From Limnephilus marmoratus (Eukaryota > Arthropoda > Insecta > Trichoptera > Limnephilidae), in the NCBI GenBank assembly GCA_917880885.1, contig OU862919.1, forward strand, positions 51,683,058 to 51,747,057: a DNA stretch of 64,000 nt, written 5' to 3'. The stretch's first letter is position 1; every line of letters starts with the position of its first letter. The notes under the pieces are model-generated. The model saw nothing but the letters and a program-made list of their open reading frames with translations, had not been told where the DNA came from and ran no database searches. Positions 7,901 to 62,082 of the stretch are shown here, in pieces. The translations under genes and the position numbers were made by a program.

Positions 7901-8082
7901 GAGTTGCCAACCTCGAGCACCACACCCGGATGACTTACTGGTGTCTTTCCTGACCTGGTGTACTGCTCCTGGATAAGCAGGATGTCGATGTGGAGGTCAG
8001 ACATGACCCGCATGATGTCCAGTGTGGCGGCCCGGGAACGCTGCAGGTTTATCTGACCTAGGGAGAGGGGATTAATTGCCAT
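4954..8082 (-). CDS. ORF2: endonuclease / reverse transcriptase (R1 clade)
   Basis: Predicted 1042-residue enzyme that nicks target DNA and reverse-transcribes the element RNA at the nick. The APE-type endonuclease fills roughly residues 1-222: QINLQRSRAA near the start, catalytic-type E39 in IQEQY, D135 and N137 in GGDFNA, D189 in SNIDL, and D214-H215 in SDHRL. The reverse transcriptase spans about 450-770: AYRPITLLP (525-533), QFGFVPGKST (558-567), LDITGAFD (591-598) with D592, GCPQGS (647-652) and the FADD box (680-683), then KYLGVTLD. The C-terminal zinc motif is C972, C974, H983, C988. No RNase H domain follows. The ATG at 8082 lies inside the last codons of ORF1 (11 nt overlap), suggesting coupled translation. 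All catalytic residues are present, so this copy could be active or only recently silenced. Confidence 0.9.
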   Translation of the reverse strand: MAINPLSLGQINLQRSRAATLDIMRVMSDLHIDILLIQEQYTRSGKTPVSHPGVVLEVGNSPQAGVLVNTSLISPLLLVGLSDEYQTCVSLRFGKTEIVLISVYFKYGNPVGPHILSLTRALNVLKGRNVVIGGDFNARSPLWFDFDARHRTERSDAVEDLIAAQGLVVLNEPHSLSTFSNTNGESNIDLSLCSGSVAAKIMQWKVHECAIASDHRLITFKVGVNKTGAPRSSWSFKTTEANWDNFGEALRDTLRGFHDVAANDPDNLGNFFNAAVVSAAESSLGRVNPKKTIRTPWWSIELTSLKGAYKRACRAFGATRRGGLMEEEIAARRVRVRATRSAFKLAVLSAKRAEWHKWVSEVGNANPWDAHSAVEKTGKGSDRYLSSVISNFEGRDVETVDVATTLQTLLGKLVPLESVTGESDHHKQVRILSRLPPRNLAQEDSMKVTRLEVENIIKGLGPKKAPGHDRLNGVIAKQVWVHAKEELFQVMETCLRRGVFPSEWKRGVLRIIPKGNGKPKSDVKAYRPITLLPVLGKILEKLIKERLRRTLSPPSPLQFGFVPGKSTEHALTFALEWVKACTKKYVIAIFLDITGAFDYASWAMILIKLKNRKCPPRLFKSCENYLSKRTVILSFGDFSIEREVDMGCPQGSNVGPDFWKILFDDSSRLPLPEGCIAVDFADDKLYLVSGNSRREIESKSEEGLNMFLQWGDRNKMTFAPQKTMGLLIKGYLSRERNPTIRMGDTRIKFVETAKYLGVTLDRSSSFLAHVKEVSSKAQALFLKLRRISTSEWGLRSPALRLIYRGVYVTQVAYCASVWEHRLDNSLILSALKRGQRTPLLALSGAYRTVASDALPVLAGVLPIDLEIREVLTKKKLTRGLPATHLGVVITPSGVGTLPGLLKRMRELTLNEWQSRWIRSNMGRWTFSFFPSVKIRMEGAYINLDHHMVQLLSGHGEFRGRLHRLSLSPHPNCTCGSTDQTAEHILWHCEIMTDARDELLDGLQVVTRPVWNSDLVSNKVNFECLKKFTRRWVERWSALRVED

Positions 8083-9568
8083 AATCAGTCATTTTGACCT
8101 GTACGTCGACTGCCGCCTGGTGCGCCGGGCATGATCGGTCCCCTGTGGGATGGTTTGAAGGCTTCTTGAACCTTGTGCATGTTGCACAGACAGCGGGTTG
8201 TACCTTCTTGGGGCAATCCTCAACGTCGTGTCCGTTTTCGGCGCAATGCCGGCAGGTTGCAACCACCTGCGTGCAGGTCTTGGAGATATGGCCATAAAGG
8301 TGGCATTTATAACATCTAGTAGCTCCTGAGTAGTCCCTGACCCGACAGGCATTCCAGCCTAGAAAGCACAGACCGCTGTCTCTAAGAAGCCTTCTTACTT
8401 CAGGGTGGCACGTGATTATCATGTGCATATTACCTGTGTCCCGCTTTCCAAAGAGGGACACACGCCTCATGGTCCTCAGGTGGTCCTCCTTGGATAGTGA
8501 GCAATTACCTTCTACGTTATTTTCATAGATTTCGGTGAACAGGGCGGCGTCCGCGGAGGGTTCACCTCTGGGGACGTCATATATGACTATCTTCGGGAGG
8601 CGTCCTTGTGGAGATATCATCTTGATACCGGCTGCGGCCAGTTTTTCTTCGGCCTTCTTAAGATTTGCCACTCCTCCTGGTGTTGTAGTTTGGATGGCGA
8701 CACCGGCACCCTTGATTTTCCTTGTCCTAACAACTTGGAAACCGTCCTTCCTGGGGTCAAGGACTGTAGGAAGGAGTTTCTCCAACTGCTCTGAAGTTTT
8801 ACCCTCCGGGGTGGTCGGGTACAGGAGCACCGTTGGCTGCCTAGATGGTAGAGGTCTTTCTTGACCACGCACTACGATGGTCTTCGACGGAGGTCCTCCC
8901 GACGCAGCACTAGCGTAAGATCTCCTAGCTGTGGAGGTGGGGATGATGTTTTCGCCAGTGCTATTGTAGATTTTTTCGAACTTCTTCGTTAGTTCTGCAT
9001 TGTTCTGGAGTGCAGCCGACAGGGCCTCTGCCTTACCCACAGCCGCTGAGTGCGCCATTGCTGTGTTGTGGAGGTGCTTCTTTATTTCCTCGATGGCTGC
9101 GCCGATGGTAGCTCGATCCTCCTTTTTTAGCTTATTTTTTGCATCGCTACATGTCTGGTATATATTATTTAGTAGTCCCCAGATCGGGAAGATCAATTCA
9201 GAGCTTAATGAGCTTGCCGAAATTTGTTGAATGCTAGCCTCGTCTTCCTCTCTCTGGCGCTTTCTGTTAGCTTGGTTGGGAGAATTTGATGTTCCCGGAG
9301 CATTTTGTGTTTCAGCATTCTTTGAAGTCTGGGGAGCAGACCACACATTCGTAGGTGCTTGCACCTCTTCAGCTTCCTGCTGATAGACCATGGCAGGGAG
9401 CCCAGCCTCACCCATCAGTTGGCTGCTGTGCAGACTTCTGAATGGTGACCCTGCACGTCCCTCCCTACCCGCCTTAAGATCAATGATAATTGATTTCAGT
9501 TTTCGGTTCTCCTCCAAGATTGAGCGTTGAAAACATTCAGAGTCTGAGTCGTCCGAGTCAGAAGGCAT
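8072..9568 (-). CDS. ORF1: gag-like nucleic-acid-binding protein
   Basis: First ORF of the R1-clade element; such proteins coat the element RNA and guide it to the target. I chose the ATG at 9568, giving 498 residues beginning MPSDSDDSDSE; an in-frame ATG at 9613 would add 15 residues with no family-like features. The N-terminus is acidic and serine-rich. A basic stretch (NRKRQREEDE) and a helical, alanine/lysine-rich segment that may form a coiled coil follow. The conserved gag core ends in three zinc knuckles: CYKCHLYGHISKTC and CRHCAENGHDVEDC (both C-x2-C-x4-H-x4-C), then a longer C-x2-C-x8-H-x6-C. Three knuckles are usual in R1-clade ORF1. No frameshift or stop is present. It ends at TAA 8072, overlapping ORF2. 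Confidence 0.85.
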   Translation of the reverse strand: MPSDSDDSDSECFQRSILEENRKLKSIIIDLKAGREGRAGSPFRSLHSSQLMGEAGLPAMVYQQEAEEVQAPTNVWSAPQTSKNAETQNAPGTSNSPNQANRKRQREEDEASIQQISASSLSSELIFPIWGLLNNIYQTCSDAKNKLKKEDRATIGAAIEEIKKHLHNTAMAHSAAVGKAEALSAALQNNAELTKKFEKIYNSTGENIIPTSTARRSYASAASGGPPSKTIVVRGQERPLPSRQPTVLLYPTTPEGKTSEQLEKLLPTVLDPRKDGFQVVRTRKIKGAGVAIQTTTPGGVANLKKAEEKLAAAGIKMISPQGRLPKIVIYDVPRGEPSADAALFTEIYENNVEGNCSLSKEDHLRTMRRVSLFGKRDTGNMHMIITCHPEVRRLLRDSGLCFLGWNACRVRDYSGATRCYKCHLYGHISKTCTQVVATCRHCAENGHDVEDCPKKVQPAVCATCTRFKKPSNHPTGDRSCPAHQAAVDVQVKMTDYGN

Positions 9569-9640
9569 GCTAGTTTCAATGGTAATCGTAGTTAACCATA
9601 GAATAGTGCACAATTAAGTGTTAATAAAAACCGGTGTATT

Positions 9641-10797: not shown

Positions 10798-11480
10798 AAA
10801 CACCAGTGAAAATTTATTTCTTCTAACACAGCATACTTATTTTGTGGCACCATTTTAATTCAAATTAACAAAATACCAGCCTTACTAAAAAAAAACCACA
10901 GCACGCCAGATAACCCATGTTGTTGTAGCAACATGAATAAAACAAAAATAGGAAATATTACTAATAAGAATTGATCTTAAAACGTATTTTAAATCTGGCA
11001 ACAATGCGCATTTAAGTACTAAATTGTGTTTTCCTTCATAACCGCTAGGTGGCAGTGCCTGCGCATTCGGTGTTCGCGCTCGTAAACGACGCTGGAAGCG
11101 CGAAATATTTTTGTGTGTGCCATATTATTTATGTGATGGTTAATTTCTATTAATATGAATAATTTACTCTTATATTTATATCAGTGATATATTTACCGTG
11201 TTTTTTGTGGTTTTTCATAAGTTTTAGTCAAGTTATAAAACAATAATCGTACTTTGAAAATTGAAGTGTCAAAAACGATATTATGATATTATACGATACA
11301 AGAGAATTTAAATTTACATTTTTACGAGATTTTATTTTACGAGAATTTTATGAAAGTGGTGTTTTTTTAAATAATAATATCTAATACATGTGTTCCTAAA
11401 TGCATCAAACAGATTAACGTCTTTAGAAATGCAAGAAATCTGATATAAAAGACGGTATAATTTTTAGGTTAGTTTTTTAG
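10798..11480. other. Spacer containing a CTCF-like site
   Basis: AT-rich apart from a GC-richer stretch at 11036-11110. Apart from the motif listed separately, nothing recognisable. Confidence 0.4.
11042..11057 (+). promoter_or_regulatory. CTCF-like binding site
   Basis: CCGCTAGGTGGCAGTG matches the conserved CTCF core (CCxCxAGGxGGCAG type) at nearly every informative position. CTCF is an insulator protein conserved from insects to vertebrates. It is a single motif in AT-rich surroundings, so this is suggestive only; there is no flanking gene in the window to interpret it against. Confidence 0.4.
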
Positions 11481-11969: not shown

Positions 11970-12120
11970 TTAGTAAGGCTGTTAGTTTTTACCACTGTTA
12001 TTGTTTCCAAAAACCTACATGTTTTATCATCAATAAAACCCTGAAGAAGTGAGCGTTGCTCACGAAACATGTTGGTTTTTGTATACAATGAAAGTGGTAA
12101 AAACTAAGTATTTTATTAAT
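11970..12120. mobile_element. Inverted pair of PLE-like terminal repeats
   Basis: Two arms in opposite orientation meet near 12030. The left arm has 'ttagtttttaccact' and 'ccaaaaacctacatg'; the right arm has 'catgttggtttttg' and 'agtggtaaaaactaa'. The right arm carries a complete hammerhead motif; the left arm keeps helix I and III words but has lost helix II. Such inverted repeats are typical of the pseudo-LTRs of Penelope-like elements. No coding sequence lies between them. Confidence 0.6.
12035..12079 (+). ncRNA. Hammerhead ribozyme, complete core
   Basis: Predicted self-cleaving RNA. Helix I is AAAACC (12035-12040) with GGTTTT (12074-12079). The core CTGAAGA is 12041-12047, followed by an extra A (12048). 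Helix II is GTGAGC (12049-12054) / GCTCAC (12058-12063) with loop GTT. GAAA is 12064-12067. Helix III is the palindrome ACATGT (12067-12072), and the GUU triplet puts cleavage after T12073. Every invariant core base is present. Helix III has no loop, so cleavage would need two molecules or tandem copies pairing. It lies in one arm of an inverted PLE-like repeat. The antisense intronic copy at 61328 shares helix I and helix III but has a different, equally paired helix II. Confidence 0.75.
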
Positions 12121-15167: not shown

Positions 15168-16139
15168 ACAAATAGACATATAAATATAATGATGTCAATG
15201 GCGCATGTTTTGTCATATGTTTTGAAATAAATAAATAAATAATACTCGAATGTATCTTGTAATGATCAGATGGTAGCAAGCGAGGAAAAAATTATATGAA
15301 AATTATAGACGTTCACCATGTTGTAGGTAGGTGCATAATAAATAAAGGGATTTTTAAAAAAATCTTGCTACGCAAACAAATTGTTTTTAAAGGGGTACGT
15401 AAAATAATTCAAAGCATGTCATATTTTAAAATTTAGAATTACATTCTGATCAAAATCATCCTGCAGGGCAACGATTTCTTCAACGACCAAACGAATAATT
15501 CTAACTCAAGGAGGTTTTGTAATAGAATTGAACCCTTTGGAAAGCCTCGGGTTTGGAGGTAAAAGGCCTCCCCCCCACACTCGCACAATACTCGGCCGTG
15601 GAACTTTACATTTATTCACTATTGTACAATTTCCATGTTGTAATATAAACTTATGATAATTACATTTGAATGGGGTGTGGGGTGTGGGGTGAGGGGCTTA
15701 AAGCGATTATGTTCTCTGGCGGCGAGAAGAAGGGCAAGGGAAAGGCATGTATTTGGTAGAATTTTCGAAACCCTATTAACTTTCAATTAATTATATCATA
15801 ATTATCATAAAAGATGTTTTTATTTTATTTTACCACCTTCAAAAGCGTGTAATTAAAAATGCTGTAGTCATGAAAAAAAAAAAAAAAAATAATCACTTTT
15901 GATGTATGTAGGTCTATATGTCTGTCCAACTTTATCTAAGTGTCATTTAAAAAAAAATGAAACTGAATGCGTGAAGAATTGAGACAAGCGATAGGTACCT
16001 AAAAGTACATGGTTAATTTCTTAACTTAGGTTTTTTAGCTAAAATATGGAAAAGTTATCAATCGCACAACTGTAATATCCCGCGATTTTTTACGGGATTG
16101 CGCTTGTTTGTATTTAATATGTATCTAATAGTCGTCAGA
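15168..16139. other. AT-rich spacer with G-rich patches
   Basis: Includes a short tandem 'ggggtgtg' run near 15672-15695 and a poly-A run near 15870-15890. No gene, RNA or repeat family is recognised. Confidence 0.4.
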
Positions 16140-16560
16140 AATGATTTTAGATTTTCACGGCCAAAATTACATATTTTCGTTATTTATTTTTGGGGTGTTA
16201 GGCCGTGTTTCGTTAACGTTTCGAACAGTGGAGGTTATCCACTTTTTACCCGCCCTGGTATAAGTAACTGATGGTTACCCCTTCAAGGCTCTATTTTTTT
16301 TGTTAAACGAAGCTACATATTTATTTTGAACGAATCTAGACCTCCAGTGTCCTTGCATACGTTGTTAGTAAGCAGTATGTAAGTGCTTAACGGGGAAAAA
16401 GCAAAATTAAAAAAAAAACCTTTCGAACAGCGTTACAGTGTCCATCATCTGCCCTGATAAGGACACTGTAACGCTGTCAGAAACGTTGGATTAAGAAGGA
16501 GGTAGCGCAACACGGCCCAACACCCCAAAAATAAATAACGAAAAAGTAATGTTTAAAACG
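16140..16560. mobile_element. PLE terminal repeats in inverted pair, with repeat H inside
   Basis: The left arm (16140-16240, minus orientation) and right arm (16450-16560, plus) share 'ttttcgttatttatttttgg', 'gccgtgtt' and the helix II hairpin words of the 17.4 kb PLE. A repeat H copy (16243-16425) interrupts the left arm. At 16425-16480 two hammerhead-like hairpins sit head to head and partly overlap. The plus copy reads CTGATAA instead of CTGANGA and has an altered helix II base, so it is probably inactive. Confidence 0.65.
16243..16425 (+). repeat. Repeat H copy inserted in a PLE arm
   Basis: Shares 'ccctggtataagtaactgat', 'ggttaccccttcaaggctct' and 'ctagacctccagtgtcc' with 58505-58700. 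It ends in an A-run at 16405-16418, so its tail is on the right. Confidence 0.7.
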
Positions 16561-16644
16561 AATTCCTTTTTTTATTTTCATTTAAGTCACCGATTTTACA
16601 CTTTTTTTTAAAATTCTTTATTAACCAAATATGCTTGTATGTAC

Positions 16645-16790
16645 TTATTATCATCATCATCATCTTCTGTCCCTTATCCTATTCGGGTCGGGGACCCACT
16701 GCATCGACAAGGCTCCTCCATGCGTCCCAGTCTTGTGCCGCTTGTTCGGCATCCGTCCATGGCAATCCCATCCTCTCCATTTATTATAAA
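16645..16790 (-). repeat. LINE 3'-end-like fragment with (ATC)n
   Basis: A microsatellite 'atcatcatcatcatc' precedes 'tattcgggtcggggacccact', a layout common at the 3' ends of insect RTE-like LINEs read on the minus strand. No coding sequence can be assigned with confidence. Confidence 0.4.
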
Positions 16791-17397
16791 ATACATTTTT
16801 CTACCAACTCACTAGGCTGGCTTACTAGTTTGAAATGAGTAAATGGGTAAATGGAAATGACTCATTATTCATTATCAATTAACAGTGACTAGGAGAAGAA
16901 ATGTAATGAGTCATATCTCATTACTCATATCAATTATTCATGACTAGAGAAAGGGACGTCACGAAACATTGCAATTGCAAAACGATTGTTTTTTTAAACA
17001 TGTTGGTATTATAAAGAAGATCGATAGATTTGCGGGTAGAACATTTACCTAGGTGTCAGGAATAACTAGTTTGATAGATACACTTATCGGCTACGCACTT
17101 ACTGTCTTTTCAGATCAAGTTACGAAGAAATTATGAAAATTAACTAAATATTTTTAAAGCACAATGAAATATTAATGTTTTTAATATTTTTGTTAATTGA
17201 TTGCTACATGTCGCAATGCGTGCCAATCACAAAAATGTGTGAATTTGTTTATGAAGAAATCGATGGTGATGATATGTTATTTATTTGAGCGGTCCAACGA
17301 CTAACGCTATATGTATCAAATCAGGCGTCGGGTGTTCAATACTTTGCTAGCCCTCAATCATTCGCAATCCACAATAGTATGAGAAATTCAATAGATA
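16791..17397. other. AT-rich spacer
   Basis: Contains loosely repeated 'aatgagt/tcattac' words at 16835-16935. No other feature seen. Confidence 0.4.
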
Positions 17398-17540
17398 CGA
17401 TTTTAGATTTTCACGGCCAAAAGTATTTTCGTTATTAGTTTTTTGGGTATTATGCCGTGTTGCGCTACCTCCTTCTTTAGCCAACGTTTCGGACAGCGTT
17501 GCAGTGTCCATAGTTAGGGGTGATGTTTGTACTTATCTAC

Positions 17541-17867
17541 TTAGGAGCGATACCATATCGCCAGCTCCACTCCTCTACGAGCTGGAGCTACAATATACTT
17601 CAACATGTTTTTTTTGCGTTTAGCCTTGATGTAACCGTCAATTACCGGATACCAAGAAGTATTGAGCTTAGCTCCGTCGTCTCTATTAATATTTATAGGA
17701 TTTTTGTGAATTTCAATTGCCTCCGTAATCAGGAATGCTCTATGAGTTTTGGGTCTTCCCAGGACCTCAGGGACAAATCCAAAGTAATGGCCGGTTTCGA
17801 TTAAGTGCTCGGCGATTGCCGATTTGTCAGGGTGGCCAAGTTTACAGGCACGAAAGTGTTCCCCTAA
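17541..17867 (-). pseudogene. PLE polyprotein C-terminus (GIY-YIG endonuclease part)
   Basis: The minus strand decodes from 17861 to the stop at 17541 without interruption. Key blocks in order: EHFRACKLGHPDKSAIAEH, IETGHYFGFVPEVLG, AFLITEAIEIHKNP, INRDDGAKLNTSWYPVI. This order (xCKxG..DKSAIAEH, then GH, then EAIEI, then NRDDG.xLxxxWxPV) is characteristic of the GIY-YIG endonuclease domain at the C-terminus of Penelope-like polyproteins, which nicks DNA for target-primed reverse transcription. The N-terminal GIY-YIG residues and the reverse transcriptase are absent, and an in-frame TAG lies just upstream at the pLTR junction. The fragment is therefore non-functional, but it identifies the surrounding repeat as a PLE. 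Confidence 0.85.
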
Positions 17868-17880
17868 CTATTACACATCT

Positions 17881-17921
17881 GTCCTGATGATGGATACTGC
17901 AACGCTGTCCGAAACGTTGGC
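17881..17921 (+). ncRNA. Hammerhead ribozyme in PLE terminal repeat
   Basis: CTGATGA at 17884-17890, extra T at 17891, helix II GGATA (17892-17896) / TGTCC (17906-17910) with one G-U wobble and a nine-base loop, GAAA at 17911-17914. Helix III is the palindrome ACGT (17914-17917); the GUU triplet gives cleavage after T17918. Helix I is GTC (17881-17883) with GGC (17919-17921), one G-U pair. PLE pLTRs are known to carry hammerheads with minimal helix III. This one belongs to the same element as the GIY-YIG fragment at 17541-17867. Confidence 0.7.
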
Positions 17922-18084
17922 TAAAGAAGGAGGTAGCGCAACACGGCATAATATCTCAAAAACTAATAACAAAAAAGGAATTTAATAATTTAATATAGGT
18001 TATTAGTTGGAATATGTATATCAAAAAAAATATATACATTATAAAATATATGTATACTTTAAAGTACATAAGCACACATTTCAC

Positions 18085-18235
18085 TACTAACAATAACACA
18101 TCTGCCCTGATAATGGACACTGTAACGATGTCCGAAACGTTGGCTAAAGGAGGATGTAGCGCAACACGGCATAACACCCTAAAAATAAACAACAAAAATA
18201 CTTTTGGCCGTGAAAATCTAAAATCATATCTGATA
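18085..18235 (+). mobile_element. Solo PLE terminal repeat
   Basis: Single right-type arm of the PLE at 17.4 kb: 'ctgccctgataatggacact', 'gtccgaaacgttggctaaag', 'gtagcgcaacacggcataac' and 'ttttggccgtgaaaatctaa'. No partner arm is close by. Confidence 0.75.
18104..18144 (+). ncRNA. Hammerhead motif, core-mutated copy
   Basis: Same fold as 17881 with perfect helix I (GCC/GGC) and perfect helix II (GGACA/TGTCC), GAAA at 18134-18137, palindrome ACGT and GUU. The core reads CTGATAA, replacing invariant G8 by A, which is expected to abolish or strongly reduce cleavage. Confidence 0.55.
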
Positions 18236-18385
18236 TTAAAGAAACTTTTTTTCTCGTATTTTATTTTTGACCGTGACCGGTTCCAGCCTATTGTGGCCAC
18301 CTTCAGACAGGTACAATTAATAGTGAAACTATGGTTTATACACAAAACATTTGGGGAAAGGGTATTAACAGGGGTGGTATCCAAT

Positions 18386-18782
18386 GGTTCCATGCCAACT
18401 CAGATTGAAACCAAATCAGAATTATCTCAGAAAGGTCATTAAAAGTTATGAAAAAATCATTTTAAAATAGCCGGTCAGTGATTGAGTGGGCATAGCGCTT
18501 GGGTTCCACCCGGGCGTCGCGTGTTCGATTCCCCGGCTGTCTAAGTCCTCCATCACAACACAAGCAACATTTTCGGCTTTCTGTGGTGGTAGTATGAGAT
18601 TTTTAAACATTGTTTGGTTATTCGTAATCCGGAAATGTTTGTCTTTCTTTAAAAAAAAAAAGAAAAAAAAGCCGGTAACCCTAATCTAACTTAACCTATT
18701 TAACCAATTTTTTTATCATCGCTCTTAATGACCTTTCTGAGGTGGTTCTGAGTTGGTCACATTCTGAGTTGGCCGGTCACCG
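18386..18782. mobile_element. hAT-like MITE F with 8 bp target duplication
   Basis: Flanked by an identical 8 bp TATCCAAT at 18378-18385 and 18783-18790. Terminal inverted repeats share 'GCCAACTCAGA', 'ctcagaaaggtcatta' and neighbouring bases over about 60 bp. An 8 bp duplication is typical of hAT superfamily insertions. It has no coding capacity. A SINE B copy occupies the centre. One end of another copy of this family is visible at 54888-54945. Confidence 0.75.
18472..18669 (+). repeat. SINE B copy inside MITE F
   Basis: Head with A-box-like 'tgattgagtgggcatagcg' and B-box-like 'gtgttcgattccccgg', tail 'tttgtctttcttt' plus an A-rich run. A short AGCCGGT word lies on both sides (18469-18475 and 18670-18676) and may be the target duplication, partly overlapping the SINE 5' end. 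Confidence 0.85.
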
Positions 18783-18965
18783 TATCCAATAATTTTATTA
18801 AAAATAAATTGAATTAAAATTATTTTATCCCACCCCAGTCCACCCCCCCCCCCCAAAGTTGCGTATATATAACTAAAACCATAGTTTAAGAAATAAATGT
18901 AACAGTCTGAAGATGGTCATAATAGGCTGAAACCGGTAATGGTCAAAAATGAAATAACTGTAAAA

Positions 18966-19949
18966 AATTGTTTTAACATATTATTACGATGTAATTCCAC
19001 CACGAATTATTGGTATCAAAAATAGCTTTAAGAAAAAAATAACAGTAATAAATAACGTTTCTAATTGAACTACTTCAAAGGTTGCTAGATCGCACTAATG
19101 ATGTAGTTTTTTTAATATACATAGCAGATAAATGTGTCGATCTGCTGTTCAGTCAACAAGATCGCTAATTAGCCTTAATTCTGAATATTTTCCTTACAAA
19201 TCTGCGGCTCTGCGGATCGTAAGAATCACGAAAATTTCCCCAGAAAGGGGGAGGCCGGGGCGCGACGGTTCGCCGAGAAATGTCAAAGGGTGTGATAGAT
19301 AAGTAGAGCTCGCTAATTTCCATACTTCTTTCCATATTATATTTATGGTAATGACGGCCCCCTACAACCGCCCGCTACGAGCGCCGCTGTTGTTTCTAGT
19401 TAGTACAATAAGACCTTCTCGCCGTTGTGCCCCCGTCTCCTTCCCACCCCCGTCTACTCGCCTACCCTTGGCCCGGTAGGGACTTGTCGCTACCCCTCGC
19501 TACCCCTTCTGCAGGGTGTTGGGACAGTGACTAAACTGAAGCACGCACACGGTGGGGGGTGAATGATGCTTTTTTAAAGGTGCTCAATTATCGATTCGTT
19601 ATTTATTGCATTGAAAAGTTAGAACAAAAAAACATATTAAAACTTCTTTTGGCCATCGAAATATGAGAATTTTACCGTTATAGGACTGCCGAATATAAAT
19701 TGCACCACCTCATAACCTGGTTGCAATTAACCTGCGTGCAACCTAACCTAACCTATTTTTTTCTGCTCTGGCGTTATGAATTTTGATCAGTTACTTATGT
19801 GAGCAAGGCCAACGATGGTATTTTCAGAAGCCAGAGTCCTTTTTATCAATAGCCAACCAGCTTTTATAAATCACAAAACTTTTAAAATTATACCGAGATT
19901 GCAGACTGACTGTTAATCTAGACTGCTATTCAGAAACACGAAGATATTA
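18966..19949. other. Spacer with GC-rich, possibly conserved patch
   Basis: A GC-rich stretch at 19195-19520 contains 'gggggaggccggggcgcgac' and 'cgcccgctacgagcgccgct'. It has no open frame of note and no repeat relatives in the window. It could be a conserved non-coding element, but comparison with other genomes is needed to say so. Confidence 0.35.
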
Positions 19950-20395
19950 GTGTACAAAGCACTTATCACTTATCTTGAGGCAGGGAATGAGCGAGCACTG
20001 GACGTTTTTGAAAAGAAAATTTTGAGGCGCATCTTCGGACCTGTTCTAGAAAATGGATTTTGGCGCAGACGTTATAACAATGAGGTCTAAACTTTGTTTA
20101 AGGAGTTAAACGTCGCAAAATTTATAAAACTGGGAAGACTTCGGTGGCTGCGTCACGTGGAGAGAATGACCGAGCATCAAGCGCCAGTCCCTGCTGAACT
20201 CAAGAGTCTCAAGACCAATAGGGCGAAGGAGCCAAGATTAAGAGCGACAACGTCCTCAAAGACATCTTGGAGCTTCTAAACTGGAGAGACCTGGCACAAA
20301 ACCGAGATGAGGAAGACTCTTGAGGAGGCCAAGACCCACCAGGGGTTGTAGAGCCTATAGTGATGATACTGATGATGATGATGACCGAGATTGCA
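19950..20395 (+). pseudogene. LINE 3' end (RTE-like reverse transcriptase C-terminus)
   Basis: Decodes with frame breaks as VYKALITYLEAGNERALDVFEKK, ILRRIFGPVLENGFWRRRYN, then FIKLGRLRWLRHVERMTEHQAP and later EAKTHQGL. This is the conserved C-terminal tail of a non-LTR polymerase (RRIFGP..., LRWLGHV.RM...). It ends in 'tgatgatgatgatg', a microsatellite tail as in RTE-type LINEs. Stops (for example after YNNEV) make it inactive; the rest of the element is missing. Confidence 0.75.
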
Positions 20396-21174
20396 AATAA
20401 AAAAATATTTGTATTAAATATGCGGTAGTTAAAAAAATATCTAAATAATAGATTAACAATAGTTGAGCTCGCCGATCTGTCATTTGAATTAAACAATTTC
20501 AAAGTTGAAAAACTATTACTCGTTTGTTACGAGTCTCTGTGATCATTTATAAATCCTTCGCTAGAAAGCGTCCGTATTTATTTACATACCCAAAACGTTT
20601 CCTTTATTACTAAATTTAATAAAGCTTAAAATATAGTGAAGATACCCACACTTCACCCTTTCTCTCCCTCACCTACCCCCCCCCCCTCCCCCCTCTTGGC
20701 GCCCCGCCCGCACTGAGCGTCTTCTGTCTCATTAGCATAATTAATTAGAATCTATGTAACTCGGCGCGTTTTGCAAACCAGCCTGCGTATATCTGTTAAA
20801 CTCAGTTGTGTAAATAGATAAGGTTTGAGTTAAGTTCAGTTGAGTTTGTGTAAGTGAACAAGTGGCCCCGCGGGGTGAGGGGAGGGGGTGGTTGGTTCGG
20901 GTGAGGGGGGGGGGGGGGAGGTGGCACAAAAGGGGTGATTAAGAACCACGTGACAACTGACTGAATCGGTGAAATTAATCGTTATTAAGTGATTGCCGAA
21001 GATTTTGTGGCGACAACTTAAGTTTGACCAGATTTAAGCCTCGAGAGAGTTTTTTAAACAGTTCCACATTATAATTCGAATATTTATGTCGAGAAAGAGT
21101 CGTCACAGTTGAATTTGTGATACATGTACTAATATACTGAAGCGACACGTATCTGTGTATAATAATATAGGGTT
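20396..21174. other. Spacer with GC-rich homopolymer patches
   Basis: 20650-20720 and 20865-20920 are C- and G-rich (runs such as 'ccccccccc' and 'gggggggggg'). Two TCAGTT initiator-like words lie near 20802 and 20836, but neither has a downstream promoter element at the right distance. No gene is supported. Confidence 0.35.
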
Positions 21175-21325
21175 AGGTTGGCATAGGTCTTGGCGGCGAA
21201 CGCGTCTGCACGCATTGCGGTGGCTCTTCAGTTTTCCTTTAAAATACCCACCACACTGCATTCCCAAAGATAAAATAGTCCATGACGGAAATTATTTAAT
21301 TATGGAGTTAATGTAAAAAAATTAT
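21175..21325 (+). repeat. Repeat A copy, deleted
   Basis: Short copy containing 'aggtcttggcggcgaacgcg', then 'cccaccacactgcattccca', and the terminal 'ggagttaatgtaaaaaaatt'. The middle of the repeat is missing. Confidence 0.7.
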
Positions 21326-21454
21326 GTAGGCCGGAATAAAGAGATAATATTTAATGTAGATACCATGCTTTACAGTTTTACAAAAATGTTGAATTACTTT
21401 AAAATAGATGTAATAAGTGGTTCGATAGGTTTGGTGACTAGGTATTTGGTGTTT

Positions 21455-21770
21455 GTCTAGGTCTTGGCGGCAGATGAGTCTGTCTATTTACTGCGTGGCG
21501 GGCCGGATCGGGAGAGACTGGTTGAGGGAGATCATTTGGCCTCTCCAGTAAGATTCTCTCATCCCATCGCCTTGCACCGAAGTGGGAGGGATGGATTCAT
21601 ACGTTCGTCACTCTTTGTCCGACTGACCCCTAGATTCTCACCCACCCCTCATACACTTTTCCTTCCCAGAACATTCTCTCTTTCATTTCTCTTTAAAAGA
21701 CTCTCCAACAGCATCTTTAAAGATGACACAGGCCCCGAGGGAAATTATTTAAATAAAATGGCGTGAAGAA
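21455..21770 (+). repeat. Repeat A copy
   Basis: Begins 'gtctaggtcttggcggcaga', has the C/T-rich centre ('ctagattctcacccacccct') and ends near 'cacaggccccgagggaaatt'. It is the closest in structure to a stand-alone SINE-like version of the family. Confidence 0.75.
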
Positions 21771-21783
21771 CATAATTAATTAG

Positions 21784-21975
21784 ACTGGTCAGTGGTTGAG
21801 TCGGCTTAGCGCTTGGGTCCCACCCGAGCGTCGCGTGTTCGATTCCTCGGCTGGCTAAGTCCTCCATCACAACACAAGTAACATTTTCGGCTTTCTGTGG
21901 TGGTAGTAGGAGATTTTCAAACATTGTTGGATTATTTGTAAGCCGGGAATGTTTGTCTTTCTTTAAAAAAAAATA
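21784..21975 (+). repeat. SINE B copy, near full length
   Basis: Good reference copy: A-box-like 'tggttgagtcggcttagcg', B-box-like 'gtgttcgattcctcgg', body 'taagtcctccatcacaacac' and 'ttctgtggtggtagtaggag', and tail 'tttgtctttctttaaaaaaa'. RNA polymerase III promoter boxes imply transcription from the left. It inserted immediately after a repeat A copy. Confidence 0.9.
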
Positions 21976-22239
21976 AAAAATAAAAATGCGCTTTGATGGT
22001 TTCGACACGGACGCACATCCGATGGATGGGTAAAGGAGAGTAAGGAAAATGTATAACGGGCGAGCGAGTGCAAAAAGAAGTCGGGTATGTCCCACAGAGA
22101 CGTAGCATGGTCAAATGAATAAAATATTTGGATCTCTTCTTGCGTCGAAATAACAAGATTTTTTTAAAAATACAATAGCAAGAGACAGGTATACGTCAAG
22201 TCTGATGTTTTGCCTACCCCTAAGGAGAAATGGAACGAA

Positions 22240-22510
22240 GGTAAAATATTTTATTTTTAATTTTTAACTTTATGAGTAAAAATATTAGCGAAAATCAATC
22301 GAAAATCCGAAGAAAGAAAATCAGAAAAAGATATTGGCTCCACTGGGATTCGAACCCAGGACCCTTTGCTTAATGGCAAGTGTTTTACCAACTGCACTAA
22401 TATTGTCTTCATTTAATTAATATTATAATTTAAGATGTTACTCATAAAGTAAAAAATTAAAAATTAATAATATTCATCTCAGACTTGCATAAAAGTCAAT
22501 AGAAGTCGCG
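22240..22510 (-). repeat. SINE D copy (tRNA-derived)
   Basis: On the minus strand the head has A-box-like 'tagtgcagttgg' and B-box 'ggttcgaatccc' with an intact T-arm (ctggg/cccag), but no matching acceptor stem, so it is not a working tRNA gene. The outer flanks 'ttaactttatgagtaa' and 'ttactcataaagta' are inverted to each other. Confidence 0.75.
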
Positions 22511-22529
22511 TATCATCATCATCATCATT

Positions 22530-23097
22530 ACATAGTATAAAATGAAGTCGCTCAAAATGTATGTGCGCGTTAATCTTTTAAACTACGCAACGGATTTTCA
22601 TACGGTTTTCACCAATAGATAGAGTGATGGAAGAGGAATGTTTATATGTATAATACACGTAAATTATATTAGAAAAAAACCAGAAATTTAAAGAAAACAT
22701 ATTTTTGTGTGATTTAAAACGGCTGGCGGGCCGTACTATAGTCACTTTTGAAATTCGTTCTACGGAAGAAATTGGAAAATAGATGTCCTAGAGTAAGTAG
22801 GTATTTGATTTGAATTATTTTATTTGATGAAGTTGCTCAAAATGTATGTGCGCATAGATCTTTTAAACTACGCAACGGATATTCATGCGGTTTTCACCAA
22901 CAGATAGAGTGATTCAAGAGGAAGGTTTATATGTATAAAAACATGCTTATTATAGTAAAGAAAAGTCGAGAAATTTAAATATTCAAATCAGGCAGCGGGC
23001 AGCGGGCAGCGGGCAAGCGGGTGGTGTGGATTTTATAAAGGTTGGGTAATGGCGTTGTGTTTCGTTAGCCACAGCAACGTGTGGCCGGGTCTGCTAG
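22530..23097 (+). mobile_element. Helitron-like element with internal duplication
   Basis: The 3' end has the Helitron signature: hairpin GCCACA (23068-23073) / TGTGGC (23080-23085), a short spacer, and CTAG at 23094-23097 followed by T. A block containing 'aaactacgcaacgga', 'ggttttcaccaa' and 'agatagagtgat' occurs twice (about 22545 and 22832). A 'gggcagc' minisatellite lies at 22983-23020. No Rep/helicase coding sequence is present, so it is non-autonomous. Confidence 0.75.
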
Positions 23098-23139
23098 TTA
23101 AAAATAAAATCGTTAAAAATTATTCAGACACTATCTAGA

Positions 23140-23370
23140 TAGCGTTCAGTTCGAGTTGAATCTTGCAATCATATATAAAGATAGCAGCCAATAATATGTG
23201 CGTTAAGAAAATGAAGATAATGTTGGTAGTTTTTGGTCGAAGTATGATACAGTTAAATGTAAACCGAATTGGACGTAGGTTCCGTAACTCGGTTGGCAGA
23301 GAGCACTTGCCGTGTAAGCAAAGGGTCTTTTTCTGATTTTTCTGTCTCCAGATTTTCAAAGGTTAAATAG
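23140..23370 (+). repeat. SINE D-related copy
   Basis: Plus-strand head 'gtaactcggttggcagagag' and 'gtaagcaaagggtc', then 'tttttctgatttttctgtct'. The B-box is missing. The upstream part 23140-23280 is the reverse complement of 27490-27640, linking it to the long D copy there. Confidence 0.65.
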
Positions 23371-23389
23371 TTTGTTAGTTAATTTTCTA

Positions 23390-23565
23390 CTAGATATGAT
23401 TTTAAATTTTCATGGTCAAAAGTATTTTCGTCGTTTATTTTTGGGGTGTTATGCCTTGTTACGAATCTGCCCTGATGATGGACACTGTAACGCTGTCTGA
23501 AACTTTGGTTAAAGAAGAAGATAACGCAACACGGCATAACACCCTAATAACGAAAAAAAATTGAA
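23390..23565. mobile_element. Compact inverted PLE terminal-repeat pair
   Basis: The left arm (23390-23462) and right arm (23465-23565) are inverted copies of the PLE repeat with almost no spacer: 'ggtcaaaagtattttcgtcg' / 'gcataacaccctaataacga'. The right arm holds a hammerhead core at 23469-23509. Confidence 0.7.
23469..23509 (+). ncRNA. Hammerhead motif, helix III mutated
   Basis: Intact CTGATGA (23472-23478), extra T, helix II GGACA/TGTCT (one G-U), GAAA at 23499-23502. Helix III reads ACTT instead of ACGT, breaking the C-G pair. Helix I GCC/GGT still pairs. Likely impaired. Confidence 0.55.
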
Positions 23566-24601
23566 AATTATGTGTGTTAGAAATATTATTTTACTAACTT
23601 ACATAACTTTTTTCGATTTGAATTTTAAAACCCACAGAAATGTTATTATCCATCTATCATACAAAATATTCAAAAAATATTGCTATAAGGCAACACAAAT
23701 CCGCCTTTCCAAGATACGAATCAGTCGATACAACTTAATAATTACACCAAATGATGTCGTCACTAATATCATTGAAGCTAAGTTATAGTTTGAGGGGGAG
23801 GGGAGAGGCGGGTGGGTGGTGTTTTCCTCCCCACTAATGATGGGGTAGATTGGGGTGGCGGCCGCGGGCACACCCTTGCAAGGTTCCTTATTTAAATGTA
23901 AATTAGGTTCATTTCGCAAAATTAATGTTCTAGGATGCCCCCTCTCGCCCGCTCTACCCCCAGTCGTGGGGCGATCGACTATAGAAATCAGTTTTTATTA
24001 GAACATTAATTATATAGCTTATTATTTAAATTGGTTGAATACCGAAAATAATATAAGTGTGCTAGAAGTACGGTAGAATTCATTTTTGAATTCTTTTGGA
24101 TAGATTAATCAAACATTTTCAAATATCGAAATTCTTTCTCAAGCAGATAAAAAAACTGTATTGGACGATTTGGAGTCTAGGGTTTAACTCTCGATACGTC
24201 AAGATGCCAAACATAACGTCCGTAACCAAGTGGGTCGGCCAATGACCTCATGCAATTTTTTTGGGCGTTTAAACCATGGAGATCTTTTTTTTGTTATTTG
24301 TAAATTTTTTGTACATGTAGTATTACCTATATTTGACAAAATATTTTTTCCTGCGATAAACGATTTTTTCACATTTTTTTTAAACGGCACATTATGTATT
24401 AATCCTTTGCGCAAGAATACCTAAAATACTAAAAATATATTTCATGTATTTAAGTAAATATGAGAAGGAAAGAAATTTTGGGGTCCACCTTCAACCCCAG
24501 TTGGCTGCGGGAGAGTTAAAAACTCTAACGACGACACTAGTTTTCTTTCATATCATCTATATTTTATATTTATTCTTTTCAGCGTTAAATTTATTTTTAT
24601 T
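23566..24601. other. Spacer with G-rich and C-rich patches
   Basis: 23790-23870 is G-rich and 23930-23975 is C-rich. The remainder is AT-rich and none of the open frames resembles a protein I know. Confidence 0.4.
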
Positions 24602-27304: not shown

Positions 27305-27690
27305 TCGTTTTTTATTTTTATTTTTAACTTATTGAGTAAAACCTCTATTGTAATATTTAATCAATTGACAATGTTAGCGAAACTCAATCGCAAATCTGAA
27401 ACATAAAAATCAGGAAAAGTTACGGTCACATCTAGGACTCGAATCTAGGAAATTGACTTGCCGGTCAGTGCTCTACCAACTGAGCTAATGTGTCCCTTAC
27501 CAATTCGGTCATATTTGACTGTTCTTCGACCAAGAATTTCCAACATTCTCGTTATTTTCTTAACGCATATTTTTATTTATGTACGATATCAAGATTCAAC
27601 CAGAACTAAATGCTATCTAAAAAGTGTCTTGGATAAATTTATCCACTTTTTATTTAATATGCGACATCTATTGACTTTTCTGCAAGTCTA
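27305..27690 (-). repeat. SINE D-long copy
   Basis: The minus strand has a tRNA-like head, 'ttagctcagttggtagagc' as D-arm and A-box and 'gattcgagtcc' as B-box, at 27425-27490. Six of seven acceptor pairs can form, so this is the most tRNA-like head in the window, but the anticodon and T-stems have mismatches. The left flank 'ttaacttattgagtaa' matches other D copies. I call it a SINE head rather than a tRNA gene. Confidence 0.65.
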
Positions 27691-32990: not shown

Positions 32991-33031
32991 CAAACATCTA
33001 ATATTCTGTATTATAGGTTAGTTATAATATT

Positions 33032-33069
33032 CTCCTGACGAAGGAAGGGTGCTTCCGAAACCGGTAGAG
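33032..33069 (+). ncRNA. Hammerhead ribozyme, complete core
   Basis: CTGACGA at 33035-33041, extra A at 33042, helix II GGAAG (33043-33047) / CTTCC (33052-33056) with loop GGTG, GAAA at 33057-33060. Helix III is the palindrome ACCGGT (33060-33065); the GUA triplet gives cleavage after A33066. Helix I begins with CTC (33032-33034) / GAG (33067-33069) and can continue after a mismatch. All invariant residues are present. The next 45 bp are shared with the copy at 53513. No coding sequence is associated. Confidence 0.75.
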
Positions 33070-33094
33070 TGTTTATAAAATAAAAGTGGTCTTC

Positions 33095-43852: not shown

Positions 43853-43902
43853 TATTATTTCGTCCTGACTAAGAAAGGGTTGTTCCTAAATCGATCGAAA
43901 TG
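43853..43902 (+). ncRNA. Decayed hammerhead motif
   Basis: 'cctgactaagaaagggttgt' followed by 'tcctaaatcgatcgaaat' lines up with the 33032 motif, but CTGACGA, GAAA and helix II all carry substitutions. Not expected to be active. Confidence 0.35.
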
Positions 43903-44039
43903 GAAATAAAATGCTTGAAACACGACAATGCATATTTTTTTTTACATTAAGTTCGAAAATATATATTTTTAAATTAAGTTAATTAGTTTTTAACCATAAA
44001 CGTGCTGCAATCTACCTTCCTCGATGTATTGTAAAATTA
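43903..44039. other. AT-rich spacer
   Basis: No feature seen. Confidence 0.4.
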
Positions 44040-45849: not shown

Positions 45850-46560
45850 TTTATTCGGTTTTCGAAACAACTAATATAGGTCTCATTGAAATCGCTGTGT
45901 CTCCCTTTTACTATAAGGGTTAGAAGTATGATCTAAACAGCGCGCGTTAGAAAGAAAAAATACCACGCTTTATATTCAAATACCATAAAATAATTTAAAT
46001 GCATTTAAACGTAATAATAATAATAATTACTTAAATGTAACTATATAAATCCGAAGTTTCCTACCGTAATTTGAAAAAAAAAATATAAATCTTTGGGAAT
46101 TTTTTATTAATTATTTTTAAATGAAACGTCAAAAAAGTGAGTTAATGAAAATGTTTATAATATATTTGCATAATAAAATGTACATGCGTTTTTATTTTAT
46201 CGTTATCAGTAATATTAATTAGAAAAAACGTAAGGTGAGACATATAAAAAACAAACAATTTTTTTTAAATTAAAAAGTTTGATGTTTATTTCGTATTATA
46301 AAATTTGAAACCATAATATGGTTTCATTTCGTATTATAAAATTTGAAACCATAATATGGTTTCAAATTTTATAATACGAAATAAACATCAAACTTTTTAA
46401 TTTAAAAAAAATTGTTTGTTTTTTATATGTCTCACCTATTATGTCATCAACTTTCGAAAACAGTTTTAGTTTTTGATGTCTTCAGAATTGATCCATTTAT
46501 TTGGATTTTATTGCAACGCCGAAATTTTTACCTTCTAAAAAATAGGATCGAGTGGTTAAT
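45850..46560 (+). repeat. Repeat E copy interrupted by a palindrome
   Basis: Left part 45850-46232 matches 30965-31310 ('ttattaattatttttaaatg', 'gttatcagtaat', 'aaaacgtaaggtgagac'). After the palindrome the match resumes ('ttatttggattttattgcaa' at 46497, compare 'tggattttattacaaagcgg'). Confidence 0.65.
46233..46437. repeat. Perfect palindrome with 81 bp arms
   Basis: 46233-46313 is the exact reverse complement of 46357-46437, with a 43 bp spacer (46314-46356) that itself repeats 'tttcgtattataaaatttga' from the left arm. Lies inside repeat E. It could be a recent fold-back insertion or a local inverted duplication, or an assembly artefact. Confidence 0.85.
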
Positions 46561-52735: not shown

Positions 52736-53512
52736 GGAAAAAAGTTAAGTTTAATGAGCTTTTTATAAGTGTACATTTATTCGAGTTTACTCGAATGTGT
52801 TTTTATACTTTACAAAATTTTTGATTACAGAAAAATATGTGATTCGATGCAATGCGAATTTTGTTTAATTATATTGTTTTTTAAGCAGGGACATGAAGGG
52901 AGACTTCCGATTATTTTTATTTGTTGTTTTATGTAATTATTTTTAATATAAATAAATATTCTTTGAAGGTCCCCCTTCATTTTTCTGCTGCAAAATTGCC
53001 TTTTTTCTTCTCCTACAGAATACTTTTTTTTCACATTAAATTATTTATAATCCAATCCCGAAAAAATCGCTTCTCCTCTAATCACCCGCGCCGCAAACTG
53101 CACGCCTAACCTTATAAACTAAAATTCGCTTACTGAGACGCATTTTGCATTGAATTCATATCGAGATTTGTTCAATTTAACGGAACGTTGTCCCAGATAA
53201 CCGAAGTAAATTAGTATTAGTTTCTTCATTTGGTTTCTGTTGTTTGGGTTTTGTCCCAAATAACCGAATGTCCGGTTAAACCGGCGCGGTGGACTAATTA
53301 AGCAGAATCGATTGTATAAAATTGAACGCTCGATTTCTTCCTCATAATTAAAGCTGCAATTAATTATGGCGTGTGATTTTATGGAAGACTTCGTTCAAAA
53401 TGATTGAACCTGCAACACCTGTATATGAACCCGATAATAATGATAATACCTTTATTGTAAGAAATTTACCACTATAACTAAAAATACATAAGTATATTAG
53501 AGTTATAATATT
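52736..53512. other. AT-rich spacer, nothing recognised
   Basis: No coding or repeat evidence. Confidence 0.4.
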
Positions 53513-53550
53513 CTCCTGACGAAGGAAGGTTGCTTCCGAAACCGGTAGAG
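53513..53550 (+). ncRNA. Hammerhead ribozyme, complete core
   Basis: CTGACGA at 53516-53522, extra A (53523), helix II GGAAG (53524-53528) / CTTCC (53533-53537) with loop GTTG, GAAA at 53538-53541. Helix III ACCGGT (53541-53546); GUA triplet with cleavage after A53547. Helix I CTC/GAG (53513-53515, 53548-53550). It is 20 kb from its close relative at 33032 and identical through the core; loop II differs. The downstream 45 bp ('aaaatgaaagtggtc', 'aacaaattt') are also shared. Confidence 0.75.
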
Positions 53551-54885
53551 TGTGTATAAAATGAAAGTGGTCTACAACAAATTTCTATGTGTTTTTTATG
53601 GTAAAAATACATATTATTGTATTGCACATAATGCACAAGGTACACCAGCTTATACATTAGATAAGTAGATAAAGTTAACAACAGACAATAATGCATGTAC
53701 GTATAAATGAAATGTGTATCTAGGTATAAGTTGAGCTTTCTCGTAACCCATCTCACTAGACTAGCCTGTGTTGAGGCAGTAATTTTACAAGTTTGTTTAT
53801 GATAACTTTGAACATACCTACACTTGTATTAAAATATATTCACTGTATAGTTTGGTTACATTAATAACTTTGAATTTGAATGAGTGCACCGGTAAAGATC
53901 ACCTTTGCACCTTTAGATCCAAATATTTGAAATAGCTTTGTGAATCACATTTTTTTTATTCTCTCTGGGAAAATGTCCTGTCGCAATGTATCTAAAGTGT
54001 CGTTGACCGAAAGCATTATGAGTTGCAGAAATTATGTATTATACAGTAGTATTTGTGTATAGATGAGTGAGGATTGTTTTGGCTTATATCTACAGAACGT
54101 CAAACACTTTCATAATAAAGGTATATGCTTTGTACAAACCGGTCTCACATACTATTATAATATGCAATTACATATAATATATATATATTTTTTTTAATAA
54201 ATAAATTTGTACGCCTCCGTGAATTTGGAATTGATGAAAGAAATTTTTAATAAGGTATTTTTTATTTATTATTATCGTAAAGTTGTGTTTTAGTTGGTAT
54301 TGAAAAACAAAGACTGCACATTTGCTTTTACTTTTGATATTTAGTATGTTTCAATAAAAAAAGTATAACAGCATCCACCGTGCTTATAATATATTTCACT
54401 AACATCGTAATAAGGCAAATGATTTCAGAGTGCGCATGTTTGAATGTATTTGTGCACATCGATAGTTGGACCACTGGCCCGCTGTCCCCTCTTACCCCAA
54501 AATGAAGAATCCTTTTAAAATAACGCTACTGAAAGTAATGCATTGTGTTAATTCGGTACGCTAATCTGATAACCTATAAATAATGTAAGATTATTAAAAA
54601 ATAAGGTATTTTTAATATATATAATATTTTTATTATTTTCGTATTTTTTTTAAGTGAAAACTTCTTTAGCACCTTTATGATTTGAAACTCGATGAAACAA
54701 AAAATGGCAACACTAAAAAAGACAAGCATTTACATCTATAGGATTTAGCCTGCGAGAGAATGAGATAGTATAATCGGTCTCCTCTTTGTGCGGTGCTTCG
54801 TAGCCTACTCTTGTCTACTTTTATTTTCTGAAGGTTTAGTAAGAAAACTTTAATTTTTTCAGTTTTCGGTGTATGGAGGAGTATT
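53551..54885. other. AT-rich spacer, nothing recognised
   Basis: No coding or repeat evidence apart from the start of the hammerhead-associated repeat tail. Confidence 0.4.
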
Positions 54886-60703: not shown

Positions 60704-61327
60704 GTGAGTATAACCTACTCTTCAATATACTAACTTAATCTTTTAGTTTTCTGTTTTTTGTTTTCATTTCACATTGCGTAAAAAATAAAAGAATAGCTTT
60801 TCAAACCTTCACCCTAAAAATTAATTTAGTTTTAATTAATTAAAAAATTCTGTAGTTTAAAAGGTACACTTTTAAATATATTTGTGTTGATATTTAATGT
60901 CACAAAGTGCATCAATTTTTTGGTTAGTTTGTCATTTTTATTAAAATTATTTTAAGGACCTGTATCATTCTTAACTTAAGTTTTTCTTCTGCATCGTTTT
61001 CTTAACACTTTACGAAAGAAAGGTTTTTAGGTCAAAGATCTTCAAGTTTTGCAGAAGTTCCTTGCTTCAGTCCACTTCTTATTTCCAGACTTTGAAAAAA
61101 TTTCCTTTCATAATTAATGCGCATGACAATTATTTTAAAATATGTTGACTTAAATCACTAATAGATAAATTATACGGTATTAAGCGAAATTAAATTAATG
61201 ACAACTACAGGAAAGAAATAAAACGCTTCTTTTTAATCACTTCTTCTACTAGTGCAAAATTATTTTGTTGTAACATTTTAAATTCAAATTAATAAATAAC
61301 GTTGTATTAACCACTTAATTATTTACA

Positions 61328-61372
61328 AAAACCGACATGTTTCGTCAGCAAAGCTGACTTCCTCAGGGTTTT
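61328..61372 (-). ncRNA. Hammerhead ribozyme, complete core, GUC site
   Basis: Minus strand, in transcript order: helix I AAAACC (61372-61367), CTGAGGA (61366-61360), extra A (61359), helix II GTCAGC (61358-61353) / GCTGAC (61349-61344) with loop TTT, GAAA (61343-61340), palindromic helix III ACATGT (61340-61335), GUC triplet with cleavage after C (61334), helix I GGTTTT (61333-61328). All invariant residues are present, both helices I and II have six Watson-Crick pairs, and GUC is the preferred triplet. It is the best motif in the window. It lies antisense within the candidate first intron. Confidence 0.8.
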
Positions 61373-62082
61373 GACAGAACTAATTTTTAAAAATAGACAT
61401 AAATAGGTAATAGTATTGCTTCTTTTTATTTCTTTCCTGTGGTTTGTTGCGTTCTATTTGTTTGTTGGAATGATTTTTTCTATTTTACATTCAGCTTCAT
61501 TTATGATCTGACACCGAAGAAAAAAATAATAAATCTATCATTCTATATATAAAAAGCGTAAGTCAAAAAAATTGCTTTTTGGTATAATTCTTAATTAATG
61601 AATGATTATAATTAATCAACTAATCTAATTTATAAAGACTTGTTTCATGTACAAGCCCTATGAGCATAAATGAATATATGAATAGAAAATAATTATTTTT
61701 TGAAATCTCTGGATTAAAATTTTCACATAGTACCTGTCTAAATTAAAAAATATATATTTTATTTAAATATCTGCAGTTGTTTATAATAATATAACTGATA
61801 TGATTTTTTTGTTAGTTTTAGAAGAAAGAGTCAAGTAATACTATTAATATCAGACGACACCCTAGTAATTTATTTTTTTATTTACTTAAAAGGTTAATTG
61901 CTAAATAATATATTTTTTAATTTACTGTAATCACCCACAAAGAAATCAAAGTTTATTTATTTGAAATCGCTCTTTAGAAAAGTTCGTGTTTTTGACTTCG
62001 ACATTTTATACTTACCATTGTAGATATAATATTTTAACTTTAACACAAACGAGTATTTCATCCATATTATTTAACTTGAAGA

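Follow-up and report, generated by a model that had tools for sequence, protein, structure and literature searches.

The hammerhead motif and its insertion

On the minus strand, positions 61372-61328 of the window (the whole 64,000-nucleotide stretch of Limnephilus marmoratus DNA that was analysed) read AAAACC, CUGAGGA, A, GUCAGC-UUU-GCUGAC, GAAA, CAUG, UC and GGUUUU, a succession with the CUGANGA, GAAA and NUH boxes, helices I and II and the open end at helix I of a type I hammerhead (Table 1). The parts named in the initial annotation, namely CUGAGGA, a six-pair helix II, GAAA, the ACAUGU palindrome, GUC and a six-pair helix I, were all present where it had placed them, and its predicted cleavage position, between 61334 and 61333 of the minus strand, agreed with the letters read. 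The core had also been described as complete, which holds for all boxes and the GUC triplet, but it is not letter-perfect, as an extra A at 61359 keeps helix II from directly adjoining A9. The 6/6 pairing bears out a well-formed motif, but the rank of best-formed is shared with the plus-strand motif at 12035-12079, which likewise pairs 6/6 and has ACAUGU.

Helix III lacks the closed loop of type I, and ACAUGU is acceptable only as part of a double hammerhead. A very short, palindromic helix III is a feature of the hammerhead variant of Penelope-like elements (PLEs) as defined in the accessible parts of PMC7761336 and PMC6466107. Since ACAUGU leaves no room for a loop, a monomer would form at best a strained helix III, and efficient cleavage of the monomer is doubtful because of the missing loop. 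The hammerhead architecture on this strand is confirmed as real at the level of sequence, and from it we infer self-cleavage.

Table 1. Features of the 61328 hammerhead motif and of the insertion that contains it, in window coordinates
Feature	Position	Strand	Basis
Type I hammerhead motif (variant: additional A in the core, helix III a palindrome)	61328-61372	-	Pairing, shuffles, profiles, 45-mer copies
Helix I, 5' strand AAAACC	61367-61372	-	Pairing-preserving CG/TA and AT/CG/TA changes in sister units
Core box CUGAGGA (C3-A9)	61360-61366	-	Sequence
Additional A at position 10, after A9 and before helix II	61359	-	In all five aligned window units of this type, 61328 included
Helix II GUCAGC-UUU-GCUGAC, six pairs, 3-nt loop	61344-61358	-	Two-sided TA/GC, CG/GC/AT and GC/CG changes in sister units
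GAAA (G12, A13, A14, A15.1)	61340-61343	-	Sequence
Palindromic helix III ACAUGU, overlapping A15.1	61335-61340	-	Predicted self-duplex, -6.0 kcal/mol
Predicted cleavage site, after C17 of GUC	61333-61334	-	Predicted from sequence
Helix I, 3' strand GGUUUU	61328-61333	-	Sequence
5'-truncated PLE insertion, element 3' end (positions 5-182 common to other copies)	61236-61417	-	Direct repeat, copy alignments
Start of PLE reading frame forming the 3' tail of the insertion; ATG 61276-61274, 13 codons MLQQNNFALVEEV	61236-61276	-	
Target-site duplication, upstream copy TAAAAAGAAGC	61418-61428	-	11-base direct repeat
Target-site duplication, downstream copy TAAAAAGAAGC	61225-61235	-	11-base direct repeat
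21-nt inverted repeat, one arm	61203-61223	.	Forms a hairpin with flanks joined (pre-insertion site)
21-nt inverted repeat, other arm	61424-61444	.	

The 11-base repeat around 61236-61417 had a chance of 1.8% per locus in this geometry. Joining the flanks restored a hairpin of 17 + 5 pairs (-22.3 kcal/mol), which suggests that an older inverted repeat received the insert in its loop. At the sister units of the window, direct repeats of 12 bases (53513, TAAAAATACATA) and 9 bases (33032) were found, with only a distant one at 12035 and none of at least 9 bases at 926. An inverted tail upstream of 61328, like that at 12035, was considered and was unsupported (p = 0.54).

Shuffles, profiles and covariance models

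The loose pattern CTGANGAN{8,25}CGAAA matched eight times in the window against 0.48 expected. The core with a stem II of at least five pairs also occurred eight times, versus a mean of 0.06 in 400 dinucleotide shuffles, and the core with stem II and a palindromic helix III occurred four times, versus 0 in the 400 shuffles. Outside the window, the letter pattern was present at 0 and 1 loci in viral contigs and at 31 in prokaryote genomes; all 32 were rejected as chance because none has a stem II of five pairs or a helix I of three. A blastn search of phages gave no match.

Five units of the window could be aligned (61328, 12035, 33032, 53513 and 926), and a profile of the other four detected 61328 with E = 1.6e-10 for the unit and E = 4.3e-6 for the core; the tail of 61328 alone was not detected by the profile of these four. 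Helix I covaried across the units at position 2 (CG or TA) and position 3 (AT, CG or TA), and helix II at positions 2 (TA/GC), 3 (CG/GC/AT) and 5 (GC/CG). Helix I mismatches were present in the 33032, 53513 and 926 units, the last of which had also lost the helix III palindrome. A covariance model built from these three units found 12035 at E = 1.5e-6 and 61328 at a rough E = 0.0065; across 32 unrelated loci totalling 232 kb it reached no better than E = 0.27.

The initial annotation had named beforehand the lack of a significant Rfam covariance-model score as grounds for refutation, and no Rfam hammerhead family matched 61200-61500 or the whole window, either at the gathering score or at E <= 10. 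This result is outweighed, in our assessment, because profiles from the other window copies detect 61328.

Copies of the insert in the genome

A search of the animal's own genome (1.63 Gb) with the 182-base insert listed at least 46 matches, six of them partial. At least 40 copies, the window's included (so at least 39 others), were 99-100% identical over at least 176 of the 182 positions, these counts being lower bounds from the scoring of 40 of 1460 candidates. The 40 listed copies ended at query position 182 (28 copies), 181 (10) or 180 (2). Among 20 copies that were retrieved, the match began at query position 5 and ended at 182 (17/20) or 181 (3/20), and the sequence beyond the 3' end differed from copy to copy. 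Upstream of the unit, reading of the same 20 revealed a common sequence in 15, an inverted piece of the unit in four and an early departure in one. From the copy ends and the upstream continuation, the window copy is taken to be a 5'-truncated one whose 3' end is nearly fixed.

Direct repeats of at least 11 bases between the 3' flank and a partner anywhere within 6 kb upstream were found for 13 of the 20 copies versus 20 of 400 control positions, where the element end may contribute up to three bases to a repeat. For the remaining seven copies no 11-base direct repeat was found.

The 45-nt hammerhead was letter-identical in all 20 retrieved copies. A blastn search of own-genome loci placed the 45-mer at 66 places (230-nt context), of which two with contexts cut by the locus end may be double counts; 56 were letter-identical and 10 carried one to five changes, including one copy whose extra residue is U and some altered in the core or helix III. 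Decayed copies are under-represented among these places because the loci were chosen by similarity to the insert or the protein. Between two subfamilies, identity was 96% in the hammerhead, 88% in 100 bases of the pseudo-LTR (pLTR) and 70-72% in the tail, and this small comparison suggests a constraint on the hammerhead beyond youth. The PLE family was apparently active recently, in a young expansion. Hammerhead-like motifs of other sequence were also observed near PLE copies at L086:3599 (+) and L087:661 (-), both with the extra A, which the search pattern required.

The coding element

No PLE gene of the 61328 family was seen beside 61328 in the window, and the motif had been annotated as having no associated protein gene. 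Genome-wide this claim is not supported, as the unit forms the 3' end of a PLE with an RVT_1 and GIY-YIG frame, which lies upstream in long copies. At locus L065 a single ORF carried both the reverse transcriptase (RVT_1, 1.6e-6, 28.4 bits, cut-off 29.6) and the GIY-YIG endonuclease (6.7e-5, 23.5 bits, cut-off 22.6), and this was the only one of five frames scanned to have the two domains together, with RVT_1 just under its cut-off. RVT_1 was found at L072, L073 and L082 (2.4e-9 at L082, with no GIY-YIG), while the 825-aa open frame at L097 had GIY-YIG and no RVT_1. A genome search with the PLE protein gave at least 101 rows (100 of 24,097 candidates scored), many with open frames of at least 400 aa and a good number with internal stops. 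In 19 of the 20 loci examined from this search the hammerhead shared the strand of the frame and lay 137-163 bases beyond the end of that frame; at L081 the family hammerhead was found on the other strand only.

At L099, a related copy, an ATG lies 52 bases after helix I of the hammerhead, where the frame starts MVPQNKFAVLEEV and opens MVPQNKFAVLEEVIVAS.... The ATG of the window insert is likewise 52 bases after the hammerhead and reads MLQQNNFALVEEV before the insert ends. As the ATG distance matches that of L099 and MLQQNNFALVEEV stops there, the 3' end of the insert corresponds to codon 14 of the element's own frame. The 61328-type hammerhead is therefore situated in a PLE pseudo-LTR, and the family has the tail into the ORF start, the 5' truncation, the target-site duplications (TSDs) and the inverted copies (the 4/20 with an inverted piece upstream) that characterize PLEs. 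We regard it as almost certain that the hammerhead at 61328-61372 on the minus strand belongs to the 3' pseudo-LTR of a Penelope-like retrotransposon of the endonuclease-containing kind and was left by a 5'-truncated insertion of 178-182 bases. Its membership among PLE hammerheads is well supported because the window unit fits the published description, as given in the accessible portions of the sources.

Alternative explanations

The initial annotation had placed the motif in a candidate first intron. A domesticated intronic ribozyme, in which an antisense or intronic self-cleaving RNA regulates a host unit like the conserved amniote intronic hammerheads, is very unlikely. An intact motif and a donor-like GTGAGT noticed by eye near 60.7 kb would speak for it, but the integrity is attributed to the youth of the copy, and 61328 belongs to a set of at least 40 dispersed, near-identical copies whose 3' end is defined by the element. 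A Pfam scan of 10 ORFs, out of 31 listed in the 56-64 kb region, gave no match above cut-off and so supported no gene nearby. The intron accordingly stays a candidate, dispersed insertion explains the position without host function, and a host-intron role for the hammerhead is itself unsupported.

We consider it similarly improbable that the unit is a non-autonomous metazoan retrozyme, that is, a type I hammerhead tandem repeat making circular RNA. Such an origin would accord with the type I fold, the low GC content and the length of about 180 bases, which falls within the 170-400 nt given in the available text of PMC7229834, but there is no tandem array at the 61328 locus, longer copies run upstream into the PLE frame, in contrast to the non-coding 170-400 bp tandem repeats of a retrozyme, and helix III does not form a looped stem. 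The missing Rfam match and the occurrence of the bare letters at 32 loci in large collections are in keeping with a chance hairpin resembling a hammerhead. The architecture was reached in 0/400 shuffles, however, helices I and II carry compensatory changes across units, and the motif is conserved in multiple copies, so that chance can be set aside almost entirely.

Other elements in the window

Further hammerhead units were located at 33029-33072 and 53510-53553 (the 33032 and 53513 units), both with ACCGGU as helix III, and degenerate ones at 920-963 (the 926 unit) and 43855-43907. The second hammerhead of the 61328 type (12035-12079, +) lies in 11982-12107, immediately preceded by its own 3' half and tail in inverted orientation, and the RNA of this region is predicted to form a long hairpin (-54 kcal/mol) that would hide the core. 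A tail-only fragment of the same PLE group at 10818-10872 (-) matches the tail of the 61328 insert and ends 5 bases before the insert end, so that the two end points are less than two codons apart in the reading frame. The sequence TTTTTTAGTAAGGCTG was seen by eye to be common to this fragment and the stretch just upstream of 11982.

A second PLE family occupies 16135-23600 and includes several hammerhead units and an endonuclease (EN)-like 108-aa fragment at 17544-17867 (-). For this fragment no protein homologue, viral locus or Pfam family was found, and it matched the EN region of L065 with E = 9e-5 in a single comparison. In the units at 17884 and 23472 (+), CUGAUGAUGG overlaps the ATG that opens a PAc-like start (MDTATLSETLAKEGGSATRH; PAc is described below) and U is the extra residue; the other units of this family are decayed.

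A 169-bp tandem repeat in four copies at 2196-2874 has a unit that by eye resembles a decayed hammerhead (ACGAAGGAA...TTCC...GAAACCGGT) and is possibly a dead retrozyme-like satellite. The region 4954-9613 (-) contains a non-LTR retrotransposon with a 513-aa ORF1, which had no Pfam match and has zinc-knuckle-like cysteines by eye, and a 1042-aa ORF2 (endonuclease and RVT_1); the two ORFs overlap as in the R1 group. A palindromic repeat at 46280-46390 matched Rfam MIR5512 on each strand, with E values of 4.4e-7 and 1.3e-6 that fall short of the gathering score, and is probably a miniature inverted-repeat element. Positions 27424-27494 were tRNA-like according to Rfam, but not to ARAGORN, and are perhaps the head of a SINE.

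Comparison with known systems

According to the accessible parts of PMC7761336, PMC6155905 and PMC6466107, PLEs bear in their pseudo-LTRs minimal type I hammerheads without helix III that are thought to cleave in dimeric form, and these sources refer the small PLE variants to Cervera & de la Pena 2014 and Lunse, Weinberg & Breaker 2017. The 61328 hammerhead shares with them the type I core, the short palindromic helix III, the location in the pLTR of a PLE with RT and GIY-YIG and the many dispersed copies, and differs in that the extra A after A9 is explicit at 61328 and that 61328 is known from sequence alone. For PAc (Poseidon, Anolis carolinensis), the available part of PMC11167929 describes reverse transcription that is initiated internally on the template, close to the ORF start, and so produces a genomic tail, a hammerhead that cleaved only with added protein, and catalytic mutants without effect on in vitro insertion. 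PAc and the 61328 element both have the hammerhead at the pLTR-ORF junction and insertions ending within the N-terminal coding region, whereas the start codon lies at stem II in PAc and 52 bases after helix I in the 61328 type. A PAc-like overlap of hammerhead and start codon is present in the second PLE family of the window (16-24 kb).

Penelope of Adineta vaga, as presented in the portion of PMC3846280 at hand, has pLTRs, inverted partial copies, TSDs of 8-10 bp and an optional tail, where pLTR and tail together reach into the first 12-22 codons. The 61328 family has the same pLTRs, inverted partial copies, TSDs and tail into the early codons, but its direct repeats are 11-14 bases long in 13/20 copies and it has at least 39 near-identical 3' units. 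The extra A between A9 and G10.1 also occurs in the plus-strand hammerhead of CChMVd (chrysanthemum chlorotic mottle viroid), a viroid RNA and not a retrotransposon; there, from what is accessible of PMC3705267, the extra A caused a moderate loss of trans-cleaving rate, its replacement by U raised the rate, and C or G was harmful. Metazoan retrozymes are described in the available text of PMC7229834 as type I hammerheads in tandem non-coding repeats of 170-400 nt with circular RNA, and resemble 61328 in having a type I hammerhead in an animal repeat, but the 61328 unit belongs to a coding PLE. Within the library searched, no paper treated Penelope, hammerhead and Lepidoptera together.

Proposed working of the element

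Reverse transcription of the element RNA would begin within the first, N-terminal codons of the frame of the following copy (the tail) and would often stop early, leaving short 3' pieces like 61236-61417. Two hammerheads, on the same transcript or on two RNAs, could pair through their ACAUGU palindromes into a shared helix III, and the double hammerhead would then cleave after GUC and divide tandem element RNA into unit lengths, in which case cleaved RNA at PLE copies would show GGUUUUUG ends. Cleavage as such a dimer is rather favoured by us, and on its own the window copy probably has little or no ribozyme activity, short of pairing with a second hammerhead RNA. The predicted ACAUGU self-duplex is at most compatible with a dimeric helix III (-6.0 kcal/mol), and when two copies were cofolded the ACAUGU-paired double hammerhead was not the minimum. 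In the folded 182-nt insert the predicted probabilities were 0.16-0.25 for helix I and 0.95-0.97 for helix II. A processing role is not established, because in the available account of PAc cleavage occurred only with protein and catalytic mutants still inserted.

In a further proposal, the PLE hammerheads of this genome make up a distinct sub-class in which an additional A or U is always required after A9 and helix III arises only between two RNAs. As many near-identical copies lie scattered in the genome, RNAs of dispersed insertions, including those antisense in host units, could pair via ACAUGU and cleave in trans. We hold this to be unlikely; if trans-cleavage were true, host transcripts with a copy would become targets of, or partners for, element RNA.

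The 61328 hammerhead is part of a mobile element, with nothing to indicate a stand-alone regulator of a host gene, and PLEs are already known to carry such motifs. The Rfam hammerhead models did not report the 61328-type variant in this window. The family offers a natural PLE case with many copies at 99-100% identity, a sharp 3' end in the element's own frame and long direct repeats in most copies examined. With the hammerhead better conserved than its surroundings between the two subfamilies, the question of why PLEs keep a hammerhead becomes testable.
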